Positions 62,146 to 62,961 of a stretch of 64,000 nucleotides of DNA are shown one piece after another. Position 1 is the first letter of the stretch; each line of letters starts with the position of its first letter. The notes under the pieces are model-generated. The model did not search any database. It was not told the DNA's origin and saw nothing but the letters and a program-made list of their open reading frames with translations. This stretch comes from Cryptosporangium minutisporangium (GTDB lineage: Bacteria > Actinomycetota > Actinomycetes > Mycobacteriales > Cryptosporangiaceae), in contig NZ_BAAAYN010000018.1 in NCBI RefSeq assembly GCF_039536245.1, forward strand, positions 124,001 to 188,000. The letters are read 5' to 3'. Made by a program: the position numbers and the translations under genes.

Positions 62146-62438
62146 TCACATCCCGAGCGCGGCCCAGGTCGGCGCCGCCGGGGTGATCCGCAGCGGCATC
62201 CGGGCCTCGCTGGGCGTCCGATCGCCCTTGCGGGAGCTGCACGGGCCGCGGCTGTACCGCCAGCGGGTCACCACGTACGTGACCAGCCGCACCACGCGCG
62301 GCGCCGGGTAGGTGCCGACCAGCCGACCGGGTGCGCCTCGTGCACCTCGGCGACTCTGCGCACGAGCATCCGGACGGCGTGCCGGAAGCTCACCCGGTGC
62401 AGCGGGCCGAGGTCGGCGTTGAGTACGAGGACGTCCAC
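62146..62438 (-). pseudogene. McrA-like HNH endonuclease, frameshifted and core deleted
   Basis: From GTG 62438 (GAAGGGAG upstream) the frame reads VDVLVLNADLGPLHRVSFRH and MLVRRVAEVHEAHP. A one-base shift near 62330 moves it to GRLVGTYPAPRVVRL and TYVVTRWRYSRGP. The next residues are CSSRKGDRTPSEARMPLRI, the C-terminal end of the family. The 40-45 residues between (CxxC, the DHV...PRSRGG active site) are absent. A frame from 62537 adds 33 residues but no support. Third gene in 4.4 kb to show this pattern. Confidence 0.82.
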
Positions 62439-62639
62439 CGGGTCTCCCTTCGTTGTCGGTGTCGCCGGTGTGTCGGTGTCGTCGGTCGCCAAAGGTGCCG
62501 GGGTGGACGATGCGTGCCTCGTTGTGCGGGTAGCCACTCCCGCCGGCGAGCCGCGACGACGCGTCAGGTCGCAGCCGGCCCGAGGCCGTCACCGTCCGTT
62601 CCCGGCACCTGTGAACCCTTCAGCCTCCGAAGAGTTCAG

Positions 62640-62711
62640 TCCGAAGCCCCCGAGTCGAACGGGGTGTCTCGCGCTACCGAGGCGCGTGGGTTGCCGTCTC
62701 CCTCGCTCCGG
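62640..62711 (-). tRNA. tRNA-like cloverleaf, anticodon CGG (Pro-type), non-canonical
   Basis: Read on the minus strand, 72 nt fold as a cloverleaf: acceptor CCGGAGC/GCTTCGG (7 bp, one G-U), D-loop AGACGGCAA on a 3-bp GGG/CCC stem, anticodon arm CGCGC-CTCGGTA-GCGCG, variable AGACA, T-arm CCCCG-TTCGACT-CGGGG, discriminator A. C1-G72, A73 and G35-G36 are proline identity elements. Oddities: G at position 8 instead of U, only 3 D-stem pairs, U at 37, CCA not encoded. It differs from ordinary actinobacterial tRNA-Pro. It may be a divergent tRNA, a decayed one or a tRNA-like regulatory RNA. Confidence 0.5.
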
Positions 62712-62729
62712 TCCGTTCTCGATTCCATC

Positions 62730-62756
62730 AAAAAAGCCGCCCGGGAATCGGGCGGC
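62730..62756 (-). terminator. strong intrinsic terminator on the minus strand
   Basis: GCCGCCCG-GGAAT-CGGGCGGC (62736-62756) is a perfect 8-bp stem; six A on the plus strand (62730-62735) give the T tract on the minus strand. It lies 20 nt after the leader ORF and before the tRNA-like element and HNH pseudogene, as in an attenuator. Confidence 0.88.
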
Positions 62757-62776
62757 AGAGACAGCGCGAATTACCG

Positions 62777-62848
62777 CTATCCCCGCCGACAGTCCAAGCC
62801 GAGGCCGGTGGCCTCGCTCGGCAGGAGCCGCGTCGAGTGGAGGTACAT
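62777..62848 (-). CDS. 23-residue leader peptide ORF
   Basis: ATG at 62848 with GGCGGGAAG about 5 bases upstream; the product is 23 residues with five Leu and ends in Asp-Cys-Arg-Arg-Gly. It starts about 30 nt after a predicted promoter and ends 20 nt before an intrinsic terminator. GGCGG in its final codons can pair with CCGCC of the terminator's first arm, so ribosome position could control termination. Too short for homology; translation unproven. Confidence 0.5.
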   Translation of the reverse strand: MYLHSTRLLPSEATGLGLDCRRG

Positions 62849-62885
62849 GACTGCTTCCCGCCTTTCTTCCTCGGTGTCGGGGACC

Positions 62886-62914
62886 ACGGTAGAGACCACC
62901 GAATGTCCCGACAA
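62886..62914 (-). promoter_or_regulatory. sigma70-like promoter of the leader RNA
   Basis: Read on the minus strand: TTGTCG (62909-62914) and TACCGT (62886-62891), 17 bp apart. Predicted start near 62879, giving an RNA of about 150 nt to the terminator. Confidence 0.5.
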
Positions 62915-62961
62915 TTGAATTAGCGTCCGGAAGAATCCCCGGAACGAGGAACGGAGGCCCG

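Follow-up and report, generated by a model that had tools for sequence, protein, structure and literature searches.

A probable ribosome-mediated attenuator at the head of tRNA arrays in Mycobacteriales, and a reduced tRNA-Pro and HNH locus in Cryptosporangium minutisporangium

Parts of the element

The window, which is the whole 64,000-nucleotide stretch of Cryptosporangium minutisporangium DNA that we analysed, carries on its minus strand a putative promoter, a 23-codon leader open reading frame (ORF), an intrinsic terminator, a tRNA-like cloverleaf and a broken HNH nuclease gene (Table 1). A first-pass annotation of the sequence had named each of these parts, and every one of them is present on that strand. 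The leader is translatable and is followed by the terminator at ribosome distance, as is expected of a ribosome-mediated attenuator. It has a single proline codon, CCG, which the tRNA-Pro(CGG) encoded behind the terminator would be predicted to read.

Table 1. Features of the window element, in their order on the minus strand
Feature	Coordinates	Strand	Basis
AT-rich box TAATTC at a WhiB7/WblC-like position	62917..62922	minus	upstream of the -35 element; read from the sequence
-35 element TTGTCG	62909..62914	minus	read from the sequence; backed by related leader promoters
-10 element TACCGT, 17-nt spacer	62886..62891	minus	as for the -35 element
GGGA, ribosome-site-like	62856..62859	minus	read from the sequence, upstream of the leader ORF
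Leader ORF, 23 codons, ATG to TAG, MYLHSTRLLPSEATGLGLDCRRG	62777..62848	minus	sequence reading and head scan
Leader tail GTCGGCGGGGA, candidate antiterminator pairing with the terminator 5' arm	62780..62790	minus	duplex -11.8 kcal/mol
Intrinsic terminator, 8-bp all-GC hairpin (62756-62736) and six T	62730..62756	minus	terminator and head scans
tRNA-Pro(CGG), array-type family, G8-A9, unusual U37	62639..62711	minus	ARAGORN and family comparison
98-nt block between tRNA and HNH	62515..62612	minus	93% identity in G002
HNH pseudogene, frameshift and loss of HNH core	62146..62438	minus	comparison with the intact G002 copy

A terminator scan found two sites, one of which is the hairpin at 62756-62736, and shuffled sequences gave 0.5. 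Because a generic sigma-70 scan that required 9 of 12 matches found no promoter for the window element, the promoter call rests on comparison with relatives. By eye, the AT box, the -35/-10 pair, the leader and the terminator of the window follow the full plan of the tRNA array heads described below.

The 98-nt block at 62515-62612 is better conserved than the leader in the comparison with G002, a genome of the same genus. The fold of 62510-62615 is hardly above that of shuffled sequences (z -1.0), and Rfam has nothing for it at gathering score. The AS1726 and Hrs13 RNAs were rejected as identities because the Rfam hits to them are weak and far under the gathering score. A T-box riboswitch was likewise rejected: neither the window nor five array loci nor 20 HNH loci gave an Rfam hit at gathering score.

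The cloverleaf belongs to an array tRNA-Pro family

ARAGORN calls the cloverleaf as tRNA-Pro(CGG), with complete stems and as the only tRNA in the 64 kb, which agrees with the first-pass description. The window copy is under the gathering score of Rfam RF00005 and is absent from the listing up to E=5; array relatives elsewhere in the same genome, in arrays C8 (39.2 bits) and C6 (43.2 bits), do reach that score. A DNA search of 41 related genomes returned copies with 80-83% identity, two of them in the same genome and others in G002, G003 and G030, all of which are tRNA-Pro genes near the head of tRNA runs.

This family has a signature of G8-A9 and the D-arm GAGGGAGACGG. Across the 21 members compared, the acceptor, T and anticodon stems are fully paired, with many two-sided changes (the anticodon stem is out of register for the g16 rows L363, L364, L365 and L368, and L378 and L386 have no row). 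Positions 8-9 are GA in 20 members and GG in one, so that G8 is found in 21 of 21. In tRNAs generally, U8 is near-universal and a purine is usual at position 37. The window tRNA has neither, carrying G8, as the whole family does, and U37, which is seen in the window only among the rows with the anticodon loop in register; most relatives have A37 or G37. The occurrence of G in place of U8 throughout an array tRNA-Pro family whose stems are intact is an observation in its own right.

The cloverleaf had been proposed to be either a tRNA mimic or a decayed tRNA, in part owing to the missing U8. We reject the mimic, because array members of this G8 tRNA-Pro family have stems that pair fully and covary. 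Nor does the lack of U8 point to decay, G8 being the rule in this family. What survives of the proposal is U37, which suggests, from comparison with relatives, that the window tRNA is decaying.

Among 397 genomes of the order, 12 have the exact D-arm pattern, and among 394 genomes of the class, 15 have a looser one; at the 13 loci with the looser pattern outside known arrays, no tRNA was found at any. A motif like TTGAGAACTNCACAGTGGATGGCA recurs in L007, L009, L003, L014 and L025, either upstream of tRNA-Pro or in the gap that separates it from tRNA-Trp. We take it to resemble the boxA region of actinobacterial rRNA operons.

HNH relatives within and outside tRNA arrays

At the same locus, G002 has an intact HNH gene; relative to it, the window copy is frameshifted and has lost its HNH core through a large internal deletion. 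Intact relatives match PF14279 (HNH_5) at 4e-14 and 9.7e-14, and the window copy is without this core. A scan of named genomes gave 80 relatives, and in the family of G030 an HNH match occurs in 198 of 200 genomes, although many of these matches are distant (near 1e-27). We examined 151 HNH loci, made up of 38 of the 80 named relatives, 110 loci from the G030 family and three from the genus of the window, and 70 of them have a tRNA nearby on the same strand.

HNH genes lie within tRNA arrays in, for example, Catenuloplanes, Asanoa, Plantactinospora and an Amycolatopsis metagenome-assembled genome. Array C8 of the window's own genome holds an intact one between tRNA-Gly(GCC) and tRNA-Gln(CTG). 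In mycobacteria, HNH genes in tRNA arrays are already known from what is available of two reports (PMC5966550; PMC12803027). Relatives on Tsukamurella and Paenarthrobacter plasmids and in Gordonia phage Sixama sit among protein genes in the annotation tables, which carry no RNA genes for the plasmids. The relative in Sixama (L302, 6980-7847), which is distant, adjoins a gene whose annotated product is a WhiB family transcription factor. Broken or partial tRNA look-alikes lie just upstream of HNH at L016, L042 and L044, where ARAGORN makes no call.

A leader and terminator recur ahead of arrays and solo HNH genes

For each tRNA run we scanned the 420 nt that precede its first tRNA, and for HNH genes with no tRNA the 420 nt that precede the gene. 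A hit required a hairpin of -9 kcal/mol or lower with a T run, together with a leader ORF that has 10-60 codons and a ribosome-binding site and ends no more than 60 nt from the hairpin. Exact duplicate heads, L017 and L235 (near edge) were left out, and the single-tRNA heads L045, L136 and L001 (the window) were kept apart from the 71 array heads and 76 solo HNH heads. The terminator finder was based on RNAfold; an earlier one without internal loops had found terminators at 17 and terminators with a leader at 16 of the 71 array heads.

Of the 71 array heads, 66 have a leader with a terminator (17 of 355 dinucleotide shuffles); of the 76 solo HNH heads, 33 do (9 of 380 shuffles). Neighbouring windows at these loci gave 1 hit in 290. 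The scan found no such pair at the other 43 solo heads. Among the five missing array heads, L386, L387 and L388 show a leader when longer flanks are used, L389 has a terminator alone and the last is L012. The first-pass annotation had made its reading depend on conservation of the element ahead of HNH homologues, and at the level of sequence the leader and terminator do occur there, at 33 of 76 solo heads, as well as ahead of tRNA arrays.

Array leaders have a median of 42 codons (mean 41, n=66), and in all 66 heads the stop codon stands 14-25 nt from the hairpin. The plan of most array heads thus runs from an AT-only box and a -35/-10 pair through the leader ORF and the 14-25-nt gap to an intrinsic terminator and the tRNAs. 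The window, with one tRNA, lacks the many tRNAs of an array unit; arrays with the same head elsewhere hold up to 36. No leader-terminator head was found at three mycobacterial plasmid arrays. In one of them (L297), the sequence before the first tRNA still contains a WblC-like GAAATC-CG-TTGCAC. Searches in the genera around G842, G833 and G848 added no genome to those surveyed.

Promoters with a WhiB7/WblC-like box

Array leaders have the pattern TTG-(16-19)-TANNNT upstream in 57 of 66 cases and solo leaders in 32 of 33; shuffles show it in 18 of 1,980. In these 57 array and 32 solo promoters, a block made almost only of A and T occupies -8 to -5, upstream of the -35 element. WhiB7/WblC promoters are described, in the portion available of PMC7157823, as having a GAAAWY box 3 bp upstream of the -35 element, a TANNNT -10 element and a 16-19 spacer. 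The best score against the WblC motif is 4 of 6 bases in 39 of the 57 array promoters and 5 of 6 in 24 of the 32 solo promoters; TAATTC in the window matches 4 of 6 by eye.

The AT block of the array heads is positioned like the WhiB7/WblC box, and WblC may be regarded as a candidate regulator. Six Whib-domain genes are encoded in the window genome. The WblC regulon includes six tRNA genes (PMC7157823), and cleavage of a tRNA by VapC5 induces whiB7, which is itself under attenuation by an upstream ORF (uORF; PMC10287673). The regulon resembles array heads in having an A-rich box a few nucleotides upstream of a TTG-type -35 element and in including tRNA genes, but no array, leader ORF or terminator is described before its tRNAs in the same portion of PMC7157823.

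The end of the leader can pair with the terminator

In array leaders (n=66), the 5' arm of the terminator pairs at a mean of -18.1 kcal/mol with the 15-nt leader stretch whose end lies 6 nt upstream of the end of the stop codon; in solo leaders (n=33) the mean for this stretch is -17.2 kcal/mol. Pairing elsewhere over most of the leader is about -5 to -9 kcal/mol, with the peak at the last codons, and in 48 of 66 cases the leader pairs better with its own terminator arm than it does on average with swapped arms. That the window leader could pair with the terminator arm had been suggested at first pass, and the computed duplex of -11.8 kcal/mol bears this out. Attenuators characteristically have an antiterminator that lies partly in the leader and is mutually exclusive with the terminator; in the window and in arrays, one is present as pairing potential.

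The layout of the array heads fits ribosome-mediated attenuation that would open the array when translation of the leader is not smooth. Transcription would start at the promoter with the WhiB7/WblC-like box (step 1) and a ribosome would follow on the leader ORF (step 2). On reaching the stop codon, this ribosome would cover the last codons, allowing the terminator 14-25 nt downstream to fold and transcription to end (step 3). If the ribosome stalled earlier because a charged tRNA was missing, or if there were no translation, the last codons could instead pair with the 5' arm of the terminator, and RNA polymerase would read through into the tRNAs and HNH (step 4). We infer these four steps, as well as the inducing signal and any role of the nuclease, from an anatomy, its recurrence, a pairing potential and a statistical match (below) that are all evident in the sequences. 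Because array leaders tend to hold codons for the tRNAs that are supplied, such a switch would respond when the tRNAs it controls run short.

The first proposal for the window, that a ribosome controls termination before a tRNA and an HNH gene, gains support as the likely reading from the recurrence of heads with a leader and terminator. The same proposal described an unfamiliar arrangement built around a lone tRNA; this holds for the instance seen here, but the general system is a tRNA array and not a lone tRNA.

Leader content follows array content

The 66 array leaders contain 16.9 different amino acids on average, and 16 of them contain 19 or 20. Means for comparison are 15.3 for background composition, 15.6 for the leaders' own pooled composition (0 of 400 simulated sets reach 16.9) and 13.6 when the DNA of the leaders is read in shifted frames. 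In large arrays, some leaders contain all 20 amino acids; for a 43-residue peptide, the probability of this is 0.0013 under background composition and 0.054 under uniform composition.

We compared leader and array content for 60 of the 66 leaders, excluding methionine as well as L212, L099 and L100 (no full locus) and incomplete arrays. When a leader is without an amino acid, the array is also without its tRNA in 158 of 177 cases, compared with a mean of 105 and a maximum of 128 in 20,000 permutations. The excess persists for 31 leaders under 50% identity (75 of 89, maximum 64 permuted) and under size-binned permutation (158, maximum 147). Expressed by array, the amino acid is missing from the leader in 19 of 627 cells in which the tRNA is present and in 158 of 513 in which it is absent. 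For isoleucine, 18 arrays have both, 1 has the tRNA only, 10 the amino acid only and 31 neither. At the level of codons, 786 of 872 array anticodons have a readable codon in their own leader (permuted mean 700, maximum 730), and synonymous codon choice follows the anticodons weakly (P=0.028). The two arrays in the window genome illustrate the match: C8 has no tRNA for Phe, Ile or Arg, and its leader is without Phe and Ile, whereas C6 supplies all three and its leader has all three.

Tests that bear on independence were borderline. Changes between sister pairs were concordant in 15 and discordant in 7 cases (P=0.067), and other identity limits gave 17/8 (P=0.054), 13/5 (P=0.048) and 13/6 (P=0.084). 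A replication set of 30 loci, from which L390 (no tRNA) and three duplicates of earlier leaders were removed and in which L361, L372, L380 (edge), L383 (single tRNA) and L389 were without a leader, left 21 further arrays, mostly from one genus and with closely related leaders, that gave 19 of 31 where 13.6 were expected (P=0.063). The original and replication sets combined give 177 of 208 (maximum 141). Shared ancestry accounts for part of the match, as leaders and arrays travel together.

Codon changes in the leaders are almost neutral, with 38 synonymous and 95 non-synonymous changes and an expected synonymous share of 0.25, which fits a peptide of unimportant sequence but also indicates that its content is not tightly held. 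The 33 solo HNH leaders, which are not independent because many look like one leader family, have hardly any Ile, Lys, Asn or Gln (0.2-0.5% each). It is as though the sensor codons had been lost along with the tRNAs.

Discussion

We read the window locus as a reduced and probably decaying example of an operon type found in Mycobacteriales, in which a reserve tRNA array, often with an embedded HNH gene, would stand behind a ribosome-mediated attenuator; on the sequence comparisons above, we give this reading a probability of about 0.7. Counting against it are the borderline sister-pair and replication tests, the weak link between synonymous codons and anticodons, the near-neutral leader codons, the three plasmid arrays and 43 solo HNH heads at which no such head was found, and a WblC motif score of just 4 of 6 bases in most array promoters. 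The attenuator is its likely component. Whether the leader also serves as an inventory, with codons matching the tRNAs behind it, is about an even call: a shortage or cleavage of any one tRNA would then stall the ribosome and switch on the reserve tRNAs and HNH, as an on-demand answer to tRNA-cleaving toxins, phage (in the sense of phage defence) or translation drugs.

We give slightly less than even odds to a general translation-stress attenuator like that of whiB7, which would sense any stalling or lack of translation, the varied amino acids being a by-product and the content match a result of shared ancestry. In its favour are the solo HNH genes that have the same kind of head and no tRNA (33 of 76), the borderline sister-pair and replication tests and the near-neutral leader codons, as well as whiB7 itself, which is attenuated through a uORF and responds to a toxin that cleaves tRNA (PMC10287673). 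It accounts less readily for a content match that persists among the 31 divergent leaders and under size-binned permutation, or for two arrays in one genome that are complementary in Phe and Ile and whose leaders are too.

For the window itself, a stray array tRNA may have inserted by chance into an HNH locus without any relation to the attenuator. In favour of this, the same locus in G002 has the leader, the terminator, the 98-nt block and an intact HNH gene and no tRNA; yet the order of attenuator, tRNA-Pro and HNH is that of the arrays, and in P. deccanensis (L012) an intact HNH gene is preceded by a single tRNA-Pro from the family of the window tRNA. We consider chance insertion rather unlikely. 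It is very improbable that the terminator ends an unrelated short transcript, with a chance ORF or unrelated small protein upstream and a separate promoter for the tRNAs and HNH, for although leader codons evolve almost neutrally and a lone intrinsic terminator before a gene is ordinary, neither the frequency of leaders with a ribosome-binding site and terminator at array heads relative to shuffles nor the sharp pairing peak at the last codons and the tight spacing would be expected. Within the operon type, the window copy retains the leader, terminator and tRNA, but its nuclease is dead, its leader is short and a single tRNA-Pro with U37 is left. It is probably a remnant in decay, although its promoter, switch and tRNA may still be working.

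Known actinobacterial attenuators, namely ilvB1 (PMC13236596) and the whiB7/wblC uORF (PMC7157823; PMC10287673), share with array heads, as far as the available text of these sources goes, a promoter and a short ORF, an antiterminator over the end of the ORF and an intrinsic terminator right behind it, with termination favoured when the ribosome is at the stop codon (PMC13236596). In ilvB1 of M. tuberculosis, the antiterminator is masked by a ribosome positioned at that codon (PMC13236596). The proposed array-head attenuator differs from ilvB1 and whiB7 in controlling tRNAs and an HNH nuclease, and its leader differs from those of known attenuators in that it is not rich in one amino acid and instead tends toward the tRNA set of the array. 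The tRNA array units of mycobacteria, plasmids and phages (PMC6515697, with parts of PMC5966550 and PMC12803027) share the dense, redundant tRNAs and the embedded HNH; the mycobacterial units differ in the three plasmid arrays without the head. The array tRNAs of mycobacteria duplicate the chromosome's own set (PMC6515697; PMC12803027 in part).

PMC5966550 contains none of the words promoter, terminator, leader or attenuat*, and PMC12803027 none of promoter, leader or attenuat*. Our literature search found no paper that joins tRNA arrays with leader peptides or WhiB7, and the wider literature could hold more. The matches listed for tRNA gene clusters or arrays with transcription attenuation were off-topic by title, and those on attenuation by leader peptides with all 20 amino acids concerned other subjects, judged by both title and abstract.

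The purpose of bacterial tRNA arrays is debated. If array heads do carry an attenuator, the arrays would be a reserve that is opened upon ribosome stalling, and a leader could sense tRNA supply in general and not that of one amino acid alone. The content of a leader relative to that of its array would then be a sequence rule that predicts what each array answers to.
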